A DNA stretch of 20,012 bases from a virus, in the IMG/VR virus record IMGVR_UViG_3300032265_000353, positions 1 to 20,012 of that record; one strand, given 5' to 3'. Position 1 is the stretch's first letter. Every line of letters begins with the position of its first letter. Under the pieces are notes generated by a model. It saw nothing but the letters and a program-made list of their open reading frames with translations, ran no database searches and was not told where the DNA came from. The position numbers were made by a program, and so were the translations under genes. This document shows positions 1,369 to 15,185 of the stretch, one piece after another.

Positions 1369-1704
1369 ATGAGAAATCTATGTAGATCTTGTGGACAAAG
1401 ACCAGTAGCAGTAAACTACTATAAACAAGGCAAGCCCTTTTATAGATCAAAGTGTGATCATTGTGCTAGAGGATTAAAAGAAGGCAGTCCCCTATGGGCA
1501 TTGGCAGGCTACAAGAAAAAGCTAGCCTGTGATAAGTGCGGGTTCAAAAGTCCGCACCAGGAAACTTTTAATGTGTTTCACATTGACGGCGATTTGACCA
1601 ATTGCCGATTTACCAATCTTAAGACTGTATGTGCAAACTGTCAACGAGTCCTACATAAAGAGGGCGTTCGTTGGCGTCAAGGGGATCTGCGACCAGATTT
1701 TTGA
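1369..1704 (+). CDS. Small HNH-like, four-CxxC zinc protein
   Basis: This 111-residue protein has four CxxC pairs (C5/C8, C29/C32, C54/C57, C88/C91), enough for two zinc sites. The second half follows the HNH nuclease layout: CDKC, then FHIDGD with H71, then a TNL motif with N83, then CANC. The usual third HNH residue after the last CxxC is Gln (Q92), not His or Asn, so cleavage activity is uncertain. HNH proteins of this size act as endonucleases or structural DNA-binding modules, and free-standing ones are often phage homing or recombination nucleases. The gene has its own late-type promoter core and ribosome binding site. Its last 86 bases overlap the 3' end of the opposing dNMP kinase gene. 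It is one of only four rightward genes. It could instead be a non-catalytic zinc-ribbon DNA-binding protein. Confidence 0.65.
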   Translation: MRNLCRSCGQRPVAVNYYKQGKPFYRSKCDHCARGLKEGSPLWALAGYKKKLACDKCGFKSPHQETFNVFHIDGDLTNCRFTNLKTVCANCQRVLHKEGVRWRQGDLRPDF

Positions 1705-2314
1705 TCTGAGTAAACAGATCGTCAATTGTTCCATTGTTATCTAAAACTGCATCGAACTTGGTACCAACCCAGGCAGTTTCGCTGGCATGTATTCCTAATT
1801 GTTCTAGTGCATGCCTCCCGATCGCCCATCCCAGGTGTCGATCTGATTTGTTGGCATTGACCGCATGCTCGTACCACTCGGGCTCTGATCCGCGGACAAC
1901 ACGAATAACAATACCGCCAGCATCTTTGATTGATTTGATTTCATTAGGGAATCGGCAATCACTGATCACAATATCGTCTTTTGAGTTTCGTAGTTTGTTT
2001 TCTAAGCTGGCGATCCACATGTCATCATGGAACCCGTTACGGCAAACTTCTGTGCCCCAATACTGTAGAACCCAGCGTGGAGTAAGATGCGGCATACCTA
2101 AACGCTCTGACCACCAGGGATCTACTTGTTCTCGCCACTCTCGTGCGCTGGTAGTTCTACCTTCTAACATGGTTCGGTCCCAACCAAACACCTGTGCTAC
2201 TGCATCTTTAAGACTGCCAGCGAAAGATTCTCTGCGGAATCCGTGAAAGTTAGTAAGATAATCGGCAACTGTGTCTTTGCCCGAGCCAATAAAACCGCAC
2301 ACACCTATGATCAT
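1619..2314 (-). CDS. gp1: Deoxynucleoside monophosphate kinase, T4 gp1-like
   Basis: This 231-residue P-loop kinase is predicted to phosphorylate dNMPs to dNDPs for phage DNA synthesis in the cytoplasm. The Walker A motif is at residues 7-15 (GFIGSGKDT). A DCRFPNE motif at 119-125 and a late HASETAW...FD segment with DNNGTIDDL (177-200) are typical of T4 gene 1-type kinases. T4 gp1 has 241 residues, so the length fits. The conserved part ends near residue 208; the last 28 codons lie antisense to the HNH-like gene and look like an unconserved tail. The ATG at 2312-2314 is preceded by AAGGGG, and a perfect hairpin covers that site and the start. A sigma70-like promoter sits upstream, which fits an early metabolic gene placed among late virion genes. 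Family assignment is firm; the exact substrate range is not visible. Confidence 0.88.
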   Translation of the reverse strand: MIIGVCGFIGSGKDTVADYLTNFHGFRRESFAGSLKDAVAQVFGWDRTMLEGRTTSAREWREQVDPWWSERLGMPHLTPRWVLQYWGTEVCRNGFHDDMWIASLENKLRNSKDDIVISDCRFPNEIKSIKDAGGIVIRVVRGSEPEWYEHAVNANKSDRHLGWAIGRHALEQLGIHASETAWVGTKFDAVLDNNGTIDDLFTQIKNLVADPLDANERPLYVGLVDSLHIQS

Positions 2315-2316
2315 AG
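2305..2316. repeat. 12-bp perfect palindrome over the dNMP kinase start
   Basis: CTATGATCATAG is a perfect 12-base palindrome containing the first codons of the kinase gene and a GATC site. It shares bases with the larger hairpin at 2313-2337, so the two structures would compete in the mRNA. It may be chance. Confidence 0.5.
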
Positions 2317-2337
2317 TATCCCCTTAGTCGATACTAT
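2313..2337 (-). promoter_or_regulatory. RNA hairpin over the kinase ribosome binding site and start codon
   Basis: On the minus strand ATAGTATC (2337-2330) and GATACTAT (2320-2313) form a perfect 8-bp stem around the loop GACTAAGGG. The Shine-Dalgarno AAGGGG lies in the loop and runs one base into the stem, and the A and U of the AUG are paired in the stem. Only transcripts that start upstream of 2337, such as read-through from gp13, can form it. In T4, genes e and soc are known to be controlled by hairpins that hide the ribosome binding site in read-through mRNA. That this hairpin acts the same way is inference. Confidence 0.5.
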
Positions 2338-2366
2338 AATTTATTACATTTAGATTAAGTTGTCAA
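2338..2366 (-). promoter_or_regulatory. Sigma70-like promoter for the dNMP kinase gene
   Basis: The minus strand shows a perfect TTGACA -35 box (2366-2361), a 17-base spacer and TAAATT (2343-2338) as a -10 box with four of six consensus bases. Transcription would start near 2331, inside the hairpin's 5' arm. The same bases hold AATAAATT, a weak variant of the late core, so late use is also possible. The promoter fits entirely in the 59-base gap after gp13. Confidence 0.45.
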
Positions 2367-2373
2367 TTTTTTA

Positions 2374-3132
2374 TTAGCCAATTACAAATGTTAGAGGCGT
2401 GCCGCCTTCTTTGTAATTGATTAGATCCAGCTCTAGTGTTTCCATTTCGGCCTTGCCCTCATTTTTCAGAGCAGTTCCGTTTAGAGTAGTACTGCCTTGC
2501 GGGCTAGCAATAGTACCAAACTTTTCTCGAGCTTCGCCTAGTATAACCTTACAGCCTGCTAGACTGTAGTCACGCAACCATTGGCTAGCATAGGGATCTT
2601 GTAGTAGATTGAAATCCGGACGATAGTTATACATCCAAACCAATAGTTCTTCATCTCCTCGGGGGCGTTGCATGATTGTTAGTCTTTTACTGGTCTTGTT
2701 AAAAGTAAAGTTAACATCGCTACCAAACATTTTACCAACCTGCTTTTGATATGAAGCAAAGGCATAATAAGTAGCTAGGCCACCCATGTTTGTACTGGCT
2801 AACAGATAGGTGTTAGAATATGCTAGGTTGAAAGGTTCAAACAAACTGCCGCCGTCGCCGCCGCCACTGCGCGACCCGATACTGCGACGGAATAGCTGTC
2901 GAACTTCGATAACTTCCTTGGGCATAACATAGTCGTTAGTGTCCACTGTTAAAGTTATAAAGCCGAAACTTTCTTCTACAGCATTTGAACTGCGTTGACG
3001 GAATTTATTAAGAGCTCTATCTATGGCGGTATTGTAGTGAATAGGGTCAAGTTCGACATCGACCATACCTGCACCTAGCATGGCCTGCACATATTCAATA
3101 ACTTTTTGGCGTTCGTTTTCAGTATCGTTCAT
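2374..3132 (-). CDS. gp13: Neck protein, T4 gp13-like (head completion)
   Basis: This 252-residue protein is the gp13 family neck protein, which with gp14 closes the DNA-filled head and makes the platform for the tail. The sequence shows the family hallmarks of T4-type phages of aquatic hosts: an N-terminal GMVDVELDPIHYNTAIDRAL segment, RQRSSNAVEESFGF, the RQLFRRSIG loop followed by a Gly-rich stretch, an FNLAYSNTYL segment, RLTIMQRPRG, MYNYRPD, and a C-terminal TFVIG end. T4 gp13 is longer (309 residues). The ATG at 3130-3132 is chosen because the conserved region begins within 20 residues and no other start fits. No clear Shine-Dalgarno precedes it, and a late promoter core ends six bases before the start. 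It is transcribed away from its partner gp14, unlike T4, where genes 13, 14 and 15 run in the same direction. Confidence 0.9.
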   Translation of the reverse strand: MNDTENERQKVIEYVQAMLGAGMVDVELDPIHYNTAIDRALNKFRQRSSNAVEESFGFITLTVDTNDYVMPKEVIEVRQLFRRSIGSRSGGGDGGSLFEPFNLAYSNTYLLASTNMGGLATYYAFASYQKQVGKMFGSDVNFTFNKTSKRLTIMQRPRGDEELLVWMYNYRPDFNLLQDPYASQWLRDYSLAGCKVILGEAREKFGTIASPQGSTTLNGTALKNEGKAEMETLELDLINYKEGGTPLTFVIG

Positions 3133-3136
3133 ATGA

Positions 3137-3145
3137 TTATTTACC
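3137..3145 (-). promoter_or_regulatory. Late promoter core for gp13, at the start codon
   Basis: The minus strand reads GGTAAATAA, the same GGTAAATA core as before both S74 fibre genes. With the T4 spacing (core at about -13 to -6), transcription would start at or next to the A of the gp13 ATG at 3132, giving a leaderless mRNA. Confidence 0.5.
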
Positions 3146-3153
3146 TATAAATA
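3146..3153 (+). promoter_or_regulatory. Consensus T4 late promoter core (TATAAATA) for gp14
   Basis: An exact TATAAATA lies just eight bases before the gp14 ATG at 3161. With T4 spacing the mRNA would begin near 3159, leaving about two bases of leader and no Shine-Dalgarno. An in-frame TAA at 3149-3151 rules out an upstream start in this frame. Confidence 0.65.
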
Positions 3154-3160
3154 TAAGACT

Positions 3161-4369
3161 ATGCCAAGACTATCTTTATACAAACCAGAGAAAGGCCCGG
3201 ATTACAAGTTTTTAGATCGTGTAATCAACGAGCAATTCCAAGTAGGCGGAACTGATGTTTATGTACACAAATACATAGGAACAGCCGCTCCTGCAGATGG
3301 AGCCGCAACTCCTTCAACTCCGAATAATACAGCCGCGCCTATTCCTGAACTAGGGATACAGGATGTCTTGTTTATGGAAAACAGAGATAGATCCTACGAG
3401 CCAGATGTCTATATCATGCGTGGAATTTATACCATGCAGGATCTAGATTTTAATCTAAGTCAATTTGGACTATTTTTACAAAACGACAACATTTTTATCA
3501 TGTTCCATTTAAAGAACACAGTAGATATGCTGACACGAAAAATCATGCCCGGTGATGTTATAGAACTACCTCATCTGAAAGATGAGTATGCACTTGATGA
3601 TAACTTTGTGGCCCTAAAAAGATTTTATGTTGTGCAGGATGTAAATCGTCCTGCCGCTGGTTTTAGTCAAACTTGGTATCCGCATTTACTACGAGCAAAA
3701 TGCGTACCTCTAGTCGATACTCAAGAATACAGCCAGATTCTTAATCAAGATGCAGGCAATGGTGATGGTAGTACTCTGCGAGATCTACTAAGCACCTACA
3801 ACAAAAATATTGAAATCAACAATCAAGTTCTTGCACAGGCAGAAGCAGATGCTCCTAGCAGTGGCTATGACACGCATCAATATTATGTAATACCTACACT
3901 GGATTCTGGTCTGTTAGATGTTGCAGATACTACCAGTGCAGATGTTGATGCCAGTACCGAACAGGCCATAATGGATGCCAGCATGATCCTGCGCAGTCCC
4001 AGTAGAAACATATACATAGGCTATGACACAGGCAATGGTGTACCACCTAACGGTGCTCCATTTAGCCAAGGAATTATATTTCCCGCTAACCCTGCAAGAG
4101 GTGCATTTTATCTACGAACAGATTACATGCCCAATGTCTTGTTTAGATTTGACGGTAAGGCCTGGGTACGCTTTGATGAAAATGTAAGAATGACCATGAA
4201 TAACTTTGGTCATCAAGATGTGTCAACAGGCACATTTGCAGGAAAGAATATCAAACTTACACAAAAAGGCACATTTATCAATAACAACAATACATCTACA
4301 ATTGCCGGACAAGTTGTACCAGAACGTCAAGCACTGAGTAAAGTATTAAAACCTAAGGCGGATAATTAA
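3161..4369 (+). CDS. gp14: Neck protein, T4 gp14-like
   Basis: This 402-residue protein matches the gp14 family, the second neck component that joins the head portal to the tail. The first 190 residues carry the family core, with an SQFGLFLQNDN segment, a GDVIELPHLKDEYALDDNF segment (T4 gp14 has a comparable GDLIYFP) and KRFYVVQDV. T4 gp14 has 256 residues; the extra length is a C-terminal extension containing RNIYIGYDTGNG and DKAWVRFDE-like structural repeats, which I recall as usual in T4-type cyanophage gp14. The ATG at 3161 is fixed by an upstream in-frame stop. A consensus late promoter core abuts it. gp15 starts one base after its stop, so the two are surely cotranscribed and probably translationally coupled. 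It is divergent from gp13. Confidence 0.87.
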   Translation: MPRLSLYKPEKGPDYKFLDRVINEQFQVGGTDVYVHKYIGTAAPADGAATPSTPNNTAAPIPELGIQDVLFMENRDRSYEPDVYIMRGIYTMQDLDFNLSQFGLFLQNDNIFIMFHLKNTVDMLTRKIMPGDVIELPHLKDEYALDDNFVALKRFYVVQDVNRPAAGFSQTWYPHLLRAKCVPLVDTQEYSQILNQDAGNGDGSTLRDLLSTYNKNIEINNQVLAQAEADAPSSGYDTHQYYVIPTLDSGLLDVADTTSADVDASTEQAIMDASMILRSPSRNIYIGYDTGNGVPPNGAPFSQGIIFPANPARGAFYLRTDYMPNVLFRFDGKAWVRFDENVRMTMNNFGHQDVSTGTFAGKNIKLTQKGTFINNNNTSTIAGQVVPERQALSKVLKPKADN

Positions 4370-15000: not shown

Positions 15001-15146
15001 ACTAGCAGATAGTTGTTGCTGTCGAATCTAGCATTTTCAGTACTATTGATACTGAATGTTATCGGAGCACTAGGAGCATTTATAGTACCAGTGGTAATTG
15101 CACCCGCGCTGTTTTCGATAAATGATAGATTACTGGCAATTGACAT
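11688..15146 (-). CDS. Second modular tail fibre with self-cleaving S74 chaperone domain
   Basis: This 1152-residue fibre shares its first 210 residues with the 1369-residue fibre, with few substitutions, and then diverges. It has the GGTAGQ...GPGTAGQ repeats, TLMA-containing repeats (near 260-330), one YYPTFVSANNATSAYM-YTTSSFYINP linker near residue 390, a VGLGTTTPNSKLDV motif, an SSGQILQSNGDAAPTWV linker and a distinct Tyr- and Trp-rich beta domain (about 745-879) that may be a receptor-binding module. GNVGIGTTNPAYKLQV follows. The C-terminal S74 chaperone has the nucleophile S1033 and K1038 of SDRRLK and ends in a coiled coil of about 30 residues. The ATG at 15144-15146 has GGGA upstream. 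S74 proteins are known to cleave themselves after trimerisation; that this one does is inferred from the intact dyad. Confidence 0.88.
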   Translation of the reverse strand: MSIASNLSFIENSAGAITTGTINAPSAPITFSINSTENARFDSNNYLLVGYTTSQGAYRLQVNGSLYASGSIIGNITGNVTGTVSTASNVAGGTAGQIHYQSAPGLTGFAGPGTAGQILTSAGTSAPVYVNTSSFMVGISLVANTATNIAGGTAGQVPYQTAAGQTSFIGPGTAGQILVSTGASAPAYTNTASVYVQNAVYVNNIIGGTAGQLVYQTAPNTTGFISTGSMYVQRAVQADSAAGSAGSVTNALTIGTGLSGSPSSTYNGSAAITISLNTATLMASAVQVSNSLTAGAGLTGTAFNGSAPQTWTLNTATLMATSVNLTGGAAGSLPYQSSANTTAMLGLGTAGYVLTAGASAPQWTAIGSLSAGTATNAVNIATVAQTASANYYPTFVSANNATSAYMAEYTTSSFYINPSTGAVTHSGTGGVNFAQPTPINFANGQYIKDNGAGGFIQYSGAAFQLVATNGITMGTSAYAQQSGATLSVNGGAYINGTVTATNFVGNISGSATGSAGSAGYTGNINATANTNVFEYIVGVSASGSTTAAATVATSVPVGFNASTGLVGLGTTTPNSKLDVRFAALSTSTQLNHILLQSLADGANNQLGARTGITFNNRTVDYVASGGLSTAGVYGVSTDNNVYARQLGLVFYTSALDAAATEKLRITSAGALAFGGAANYGSSGQILQSNGDAAPTWVNASGITSGATSLTNTYVGFGSASNLLTGSANLTWNGTTLYINGRLQNAGGLKTYSVSTGGQGNVNAIYEIMKISRDSVNWSTNTSYEITVYSSYYTSGGYTKWLLTYGYGDTGTLVCTYASGGGKMRVYLGSEVTVNANCQYKPVFLDIPPYMQASIEVRYNTTEVGAVGSINSSGQVFFSAIMTASGGTGAFYSGDIHLVPSGGNVGIGTTNPAYKLQVVGANTTGTPLAQFNATGTGAFQRGVQLFNTALAAGESIMYSVGTADSSRQMGQMYYYYAGSNSTSNRLSFGLHSVDDVINILGSGNVMIGTTADNGGKLGVSGEIRATNEITAYYSDRRLKENVNPITNAVDKILKLNGITYNPNDLAESFGFDKTQEIVGLFADEVEEVLPQAVRPAPFDQTAEGVSKSGENYKTIQYEKLVPLLIEAIKEQNTIIESQQAKIDRLMKHLGLED
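12510..12912 (-). other. Distinct beta-rich domain in the 1152-residue fibre
   Basis: This covers residues of about 745-879 of the 1152-residue fibre. It is unlike the low-complexity surroundings: Tyr, Trp and Lys rich, with IYEIMKISRD, SYEITVYSSYY, KWLLTYGYG and YKPVFLDIPPYMQASIEVRY segments that look like alternating beta strands. It is absent from the 1369-residue fibre. Comparable Tyr-rich blocks occur in other phage fibres before the S74 domain. A receptor or glycan-binding role is plausible but unproved. Confidence 0.5.
13893..13977 (-). repeat. Fibre linker cassette in the 1152-residue fibre
   Basis: This encodes YYPTFVSANNATSAYMAEYTTSSFYINP, the single copy of the linker in this fibre. 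Other copies are at 8644-8740, 9775-9857 and 10557-10640. Confidence 0.7.
14530..15146 (-). repeat. N-terminal copy of a duplicated fibre segment, second copy
   Basis: This is the counterpart of 11000-11608. Identical runs of more than 30 bases occur at 14599-14633 and 14692-14726, showing the copies have been kept alike by recent duplication or gene conversion. Confidence 0.8.
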
Positions 15147-15162: not shown

Positions 15163-15185
15163 ATTTACTGTATTTACCAGTAAAT
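15163..15185. repeat. Inverted repeat enclosing a late promoter core
   Basis: ATTTACTG (15163-15170) and CAGTAAAT (15178-15185) are perfect 8-bp arms around a 7-base loop, TATTTAC. The repeat starts at the stop codon of the 1068-residue gene, and on the minus strand it is followed by ATTTTG. The core of the GGTAAATA promoter lies across the loop. It could be a weak hairpin terminator combined with a promoter. Confidence 0.5.
15171..15178 (-). promoter_or_regulatory. Late promoter core for the 1152-residue fibre
   Basis: GTAAATAC preceded by G on the minus strand would start transcription near 15165 and leave a 19-base leader with a GGGA ribosome binding site. A second core (GTAAATAT, about 15161-15168) lies closer to the start and could be an alternative. 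Confidence 0.55.

Follow-up and report, generated by a model that had tools for sequence, protein, structure and literature searches.

A promoter-embedded hairpin over the start codon of a dNMP kinase gene in a T4-type phage: a candidate insulated early-type promoter

Hairpins that hide ribosome-binding sites in read-through RNA

In phage T4, the ribosome-binding sites of e, soc, 49 and I-TevI are hidden in early and middle read-through RNA and are free on late transcripts (PMC3014915, PMC2988022), and all T4 genes of this type are late genes (PMC2988022). Mobile elements offer a second precedent. Protection of IS10/Tn10 from external promoters was addressed by Davis, Simons and Kleckner in 1985 (title cited in PMC2965389), and protection of IS200 from outside transcripts is summarised in PMC3196728. 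The own transcription start of IS10/Tn10 lies within an inverted repeat, and transcripts arriving from outside fold and hide the ribosome-binding site. Among early genes, T4 regB has a typical early promoter that is turned off 2-3 min after infection (PMC3014915). Its 1986 deposit (X04567) describes imperfect inverted repeats, D and D', flanking the -10 element, with the ribosome-binding site contained in D'; the repeat is labelled as a stem-loop and 'pot. transcription terminator' of the upstream ORF. Early-gene mirror cases of the T4 type were not found described in the open-access literature searched, which did not cover subscription journals.

Here, a hairpin at the start of a deoxynucleoside monophosphate (dNMP) kinase gene is analysed in a 20,012-base virus-record fragment of a T4-type phage (IMGVR_UViG_3300032265_000353), referred to as the window. 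As at e, soc, 49 and I-TevI, RNA from the adjacent upstream promoter would lack the 5' half of a hairpin covering the ribosome-binding site, and longer RNA is predicted to be silenced. In those T4 genes, however, early RNA is silenced and the internal promoter is a late one, whereas the locus here combines an internal promoter of the sigma-70, early type with a late-type structural gene upstream. Measured against the T4 cases, occlusion of the Shine-Dalgarno or AUG in a helix on the long transcript is met (predicted 11-bp stem, 11.8 kcal/mol), and absence of the 5' arm from RNA of the internal promoter is met by a predicted start only, with the register between arm and promoter kept in relatives. 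An internal late promoter of the TATAAATA type is not present: relatives carry TTGAC-17-TATAMT, and TAAATT in the window is off the late motif. As to the class of the silenced transcript, gp13 is a structural gene with late-type motifs ahead of it in some relatives, and no expression data are available. The nearest mechanistic match is provided by IS10 and IS200, which likewise have their own start (predicted here) within an inverted repeat, so that RNA arriving from outside has its ribosome-binding site hidden. IS10 protects the transposase of a mobile element, whereas core phage genes, probably under temporal control, are concerned here; membership of a transposable element is not supported, as the gp13-kinase neighbourhood recurs in relatives and the kinase belongs to a phage family. 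The locus also resembles regB as deposited, where the imperfect repeats flank the -10 and D' holds the ribosome-binding site, but is read as occlusion of that site and not, as in the annotation of X04567, as a stem-loop or terminator only.

Anatomy of the hairpin and its promoter

On its minus strand, the window encodes the controlled gene, a dNMP kinase of 231 aa (1619..2314; phrog_139, E 1e-51), and upstream of it, co-directionally, a gp13-like head-tail adaptor (2374..3132, minus strand; phrog_211, head-tail adaptor Ad2, E 3e-31). The gap between them measures 59 nt, and a gp13 transcript would read through it. Family matches were also obtained for a tail sheath (2-1276), a sheath stabilizer and tail fibres, while an Rfam scan and a tRNA scan of the window returned no matches. 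No near relative at the DNA level was found for the window among deposited phages; the closest deposited kinase, that of Sinorhizobium phage Phosso, is 53% identical. An HNH endonuclease-like ORF with a weak PHROG match (1369-1704, plus strand) overlaps the kinase gene by 86 bases at the 3' end of the latter (1619-1704), on the opposite strand, and the T4 late-promoter consensus TATAAATA is found at about 3140-3160 (plus strand), divergent from gp13 and a few bases before an ORF at 3161-4369.

The hairpin is built on a perfect 8-bp stem on the minus strand, in which ATAGTATC (2337-2330) pairs with GATACTAT (2320-2313) around the loop GACTAAGGG. RNA folding adds three pairs and yields an 11-bp stem (2340-2330 with 2320-2310), giving a 5' arm at 2330..2340 (core 2330-2337) and a 3' arm at 2310..2320 (core 2313-2320). 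The 5' arm consists of the end of the -10 element and the discriminator and lies upstream of +1 save for its last 2 nt, and the 3' arm takes in the final Shine-Dalgarno base, the spacer and the entire AUG (2314-2312). The remainder of the Shine-Dalgarno AAGGGG (2320..2325, minus strand) occupies the loop. Fold energy is predicted at -11.1 kcal/mol over 41 nt (z = -3.9), a value that 0 of 200 shuffles equalled. The opening cost, defined as the predicted energy needed to unpair positions -13 to +3 around the start codon, amounts to 11.8 kcal/mol when the RNA begins at 2380 versus 5.2 kcal/mol when it begins at 2331, and to 4-6.3 kcal/mol for every 5' end tried between 2335 and 2327.

The -35 element TTGACA (2361..2366, minus strand) and the -10 element TAAATT (2338..2343, minus strand) are separated by a 17-nt spacer, and standard -10 spacing places the inferred transcription start at 2331 (minus strand), uncertain by 1-3 nt. 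Agreement with the sigma-70 consensus (TTGACA / TATAAT, spacing of about 17) reaches 10 of 12 bases in the window and is conserved in relatives, TTGAC being kept in nearly all that carry the promoter; the -10 of the window alone has just 4 of 6 consensus bases. A late-promoter reading of TAAATT, which is one base off the TAAATA core, is disfavoured, and the sigma-70 type is preferred because relatives carry TATACT, TATAAT, TAAAAT or TACAAT 17 nt from TTGAC. Under either reading the start would fall beyond most of the 5' arm, an inference made from sequence alone. The idea that the conserved spacer recurs genome-wide as a general promoter was rejected: a search of 9 contigs gave a single match, which lies at the kinase. 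Early activity and later shut-off of the kinase promoter are likewise inferred, as no transcriptome exists for the window phage.

The original prediction had given positions for the stem, the Shine-Dalgarno, the AUG, a TTGACA-17-TAAATT promoter and a start near 2331, all of which are correct by sequence. Its placement of AAGGGG in the loop held only in part, the last G (2320) lying in the 3' arm, and its assignment of the AU of the AUG to the stem held and is extended to the whole AUG by RNA folding. The further claim that RNA from the promoter cannot form the hairpin, while read-through RNA can, is supported by the folding from 2331 and 2380 and by the comparative data below.

Within the window, 47 promoter-like matches were counted against 45.8 expected, and four perfect stems of at least 8 bp against 2-8 in shuffles. 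Because stem and promoter match are each within chance, the case rests on comparison. A functionless chance hairpin in A+T-rich DNA would agree with the window taken alone, in which the stem is no rarer than in shuffles, but can practically be ruled out by pairing that is conserved under change in sister groups and by recurrence at unrelated genes. It is the placement on the start codon and the recurrence with altered sequence in relatives, not the stem alone, that exceed chance. A second perfect 8-bp stem of the window, ATTTACTG/CAGTAAAT (15163-15185, minus strand), has the late-promoter-like loop GTAAATA and lies just before an ORF starting at 15146.

Conservation and recurrence of the design

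Scans of viral contigs for close kinases supplied 120 distinct upstream regions, of which about 85 were scored as having a sigma-70-type promoter (TTGAC(A/C/T)-17-TATA(A/C)T or a variant); 2-3 of these look spurious on inspection, and 83 were used to compare opening costs. In this promoter class, the predicted +1 typically lies 14-18 nt before the AUG, and most members have a gap of 45-61 nt (about 58) to the upstream gene. Full-length copies of the latter are mostly gp13-like ORFs of 250-280 aa, preceded in some relatives by a TAAATA-type (late-type) motif at about 25 nt. Kinases of the promoter-less class mostly overlap another kind of upstream ORF by 4 nt. The median opening cost of the promoter class (n = 83) is 8.45 kcal/mol for read-through RNA versus 4.09 kcal/mol for promoter-derived RNA, and falls to 5.84 when the upstream part is shuffled (p about 1e-12) and to 5.92 when the promoter is swapped for that of a relative (p = 3e-12); these p-values are nominal, since relatives are not independent. 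No clear excess structure was detected in the promoter-less class (4.89 vs 4.82 shuffled, p = 0.07). An exact scan for the hairpin in viral contigs gave 7 matches, 7/7 at kinase starts, and the element is therefore no dispersed repeat. Strong hairpins are present at the start sites of the Atu_ph07 and Phosso kinases.

Two pairing geometries occur. In type 1, found in the window, the discriminator is the 5' arm and the spacer between Shine-Dalgarno and AUG the 3' arm. In type 2, the Shine-Dalgarno itself serves as the 3' arm and pairs with a 5' arm that immediately follows the -35, with an inner stem round the -10. Evidence for covariation comes from sister groups because the stem is nearly invariant in the window's own close subgroup, where two-sided changes were looked for and none found; three members of this subgroup re-pair in a shifted register (by inspection). 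In a sister subgroup of type 1 (31 sequences), 94.5% of cells are paired versus 31-55% in slid registers, and two-sided changes are found at 5 of 7 pairs, a result reached in 0 of 500 shuffles. Mapping the states type 1, type 2 and none on the kinase tree takes 18 changes, several of them forced by well-supported branches, and the type-1 5' arm requires at least 23. Type 2 was misaligned by MAFFT, so its arms were coded by hand; in swaps of exact arms the natives separated only partly (3/12 beat all swaps), because many arms share an anti-Shine-Dalgarno core. Stems broken without compensation in relatives, which the original prediction had named as its refutation, are not the general outcome: the sister subgroup compensates and some relatives use other pairing.

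These data bear on two further explanations. The inverted repeat could act as DNA, as an operator bound by a repressor of this promoter, and not as an RNA structure, given that it overlaps promoter and start region as operators do. This is very unlikely: there are 58 distinct arm pairs among the 83 promoter-class sequences, G-U pairs are tolerated, two geometries are in use and the partners include coding bases (gene 1 of T4 and Mosigvirus), and a single protein would hardly read all of these. Alternatively, instead of a plain block the structure could be the target of a RegA-, RegB- or RNase-like protein that regulates translation or processes RNA. Since RNA structure inhibits T4 RegB, which cleaves Shine-Dalgarno sequences (PMC3014915), read-through RNA could also be shielded from RegB in this way. 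No loop or primary sequence is conserved across subgroups, however, and this explanation is considered highly improbable.

The design is not confined to the kinase. A scan of nine related contigs yielded 68 promoter-start pairs with a median z of -0.4, and the 9 pairs above z = 2 include the kinase, a DsbA-like gene (phrog_639/12534) and a 116-aa ORF; the long, structural-looking ORF before the latter gave no family match. Many DsbA-like and 116-aa relatives share the design but not the arm sequences; in one example, AATCTCCTGT follows the -35 and the ribosome-binding site is ACAGGAGATT. Median opening costs are 8.5 (read-through) versus 1.6 kcal/mol (own promoter) for the DsbA-like genes (n = 45) and 8.7 versus 2.3 kcal/mol for the 116-aa ORF (n = 16). 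Several DsbA-like members lack closure, and the effect of a promoter swap in this family is small (8.5 vs 7.0, p = 0.02), since its arms are for the most part plain anti-Shine-Dalgarno sequence.

Two other arrangements were noted. Before one DsbA-like start (L422, locus 1501), the promoter pairs with itself through a 14-bp inverted repeat, TTGACATTGTATTAT...ATAATACAATGTCAA, and the ribosome-binding site is uncovered. Clusters of small ORFs in G001 (190-208 kb) and G005 (97-105 kb; loci L364, L365, L378 and L379 in all), each after a near-identical strong promoter (TGGTTGACA...GCTATAATATACAC...AAAGGAGC), probably represent the early region of those phages.

In the main rival, the promoter is nested in an intrinsic terminator of transcripts from gp13 or from further upstream, and insulation would be transcriptional and not translational. 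In its favour, the 1986 regB deposit gives the same kind of repeat that label, at least 5 of the 8 nt preceding the start are T in 21/45 DsbA-like and 5/16 116-aa relatives, and the kinase loci L261 and L266 look terminator-like. Against it, the stem of the window is not followed by a U-run (GATACTATGATCAT), and such a run is present in just 9/85 kinase relatives, the stem extends into the AUG, and a scan of the window gave no terminator there. This rival is thus judged unlikely, although termination may possibly contribute where a U-run follows the stem. At the kinase starts of the distant relatives L261, L262 and L266, terminator-like stems (AAAATGCTCTC-loop-GAGGGCATTTTTT) end at the AUG and might combine terminator and occluder.

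Cultured phages carry the design as well. In PA5oct, dsbA sits behind a putative adhesin gene and has the arrangement TTGACTAACTCCGTT...TATAAT...AACGGAGTTAACA-ATG, with predicted opening costs of 18.4 (read-through) versus 2.7 kcal/mol (own promoter). Five T4 genes with early-type promoters exceed z = 2, namely regB, gene 1, alc, modB and alt.-3, and their predicted opening costs are 13.5-18.5 on read-through RNA versus 1.9-4.4 kcal/mol on RNA from their own promoter. Among 166 T4 starts, the increase in closure due to upstream sequence is larger with an early-type promoter (p = 0.0008) or a late promoter (p = 0.003) than with neither type, and the known cases e (17.3) and I-TevII are recovered by the opening measure. 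The regB arms are altered yet their pairing is kept in Mosigvirus, Dhakavirus, Karamvirus and a Klebsiella phage. Gene 1, which is T4's own dNMP kinase gene, lies behind tail gene 3; its arm pairs with codons 2-3, and these codons and the promoter spacer differ together between T4 and Mosigvirus. The gene 1 design was found only in T4 and a Mosigvirus and is absent from the seven other T4-type phages fetched, in which gene 1 abuts gene 3 without a gap. In the deposit of gene 1, a promoter is marked and the start-site stem is not. Large upstream-derived closure is also seen at T4 (NC_000866) minus-strand starts 53885, 144431, 8161, 71918 and 130253, which have no early or late promoter by the patterns used, and at start 46855, the known case of gene 49.

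Read-through insulation and its implications

The sequence anatomy, the pairing kept under sequence change, the association with a promoter and the recurrence at other genes and in other phages are shown. The reading preferred here is that the element is an insulated, or 'read-through-proof', early-type promoter and that read-through RNA is translationally occluded; this is likely, with the 5' end, the early timing, the late read-through and the translational block all inferred. According to this model, host-type RNA polymerase would start at about 2331 and produce a 17-nt leader on which AAGGGG is free, allowing the kinase to be translated. RNA entering from upstream (gp13, probably late) would also carry the promoter-embedded 5' arm, which would fold onto the spacer and AUG and block ribosome entry. 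Kinase synthesis would then follow its own promoter only and should cease with the early promoters even though the DNA is still transcribed. One objection is that the window phage has no 5'-end, RNA or protein measurement, structure and start being predicted only.

Late read-through at kinase loci is probable but unproven, and relies on motifs of late type that precede gp13 in several relatives. The original prediction of a metabolic gene kept quiet on late message consequently remains an inference, as gp13 is of late structural type and neither timing nor 5' end has been measured here. Its view of the locus as the mirror of T4 e and soc is retained as a reading and widened to insulation from any read-through, a safer and wider function than the silencing of late message. 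This wording is safer because T4 regB and modB are located behind genes of early regions.

A bolder reading, also regarded as likely though resting on prediction, is that T4-type phages, T4 included, have a recurrent and independently rebuilt class of such early promoters. In these, the -35, spacer, -10 or discriminator would encode an anti-Shine-Dalgarno (or anti-start) arm, and the dNMP kinase, dsbA, regB, alc and modB would be translated only from their own promoter and be silent on read-through RNA. If true, this is readily testable in T4 and PA5oct. For annotators, the design gives a signature of early promoters within late regions. It is a compact means of tying a gene to one promoter without repressor or terminator, with promoter DNA doubling as an antisense arm. 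If the reading is correct, it would help to explain how synthesis of RegB and other early proteins could end although transcription of their DNA goes on, and would add the missing half of T4-type temporal control, in which early genes are silenced on later RNA.
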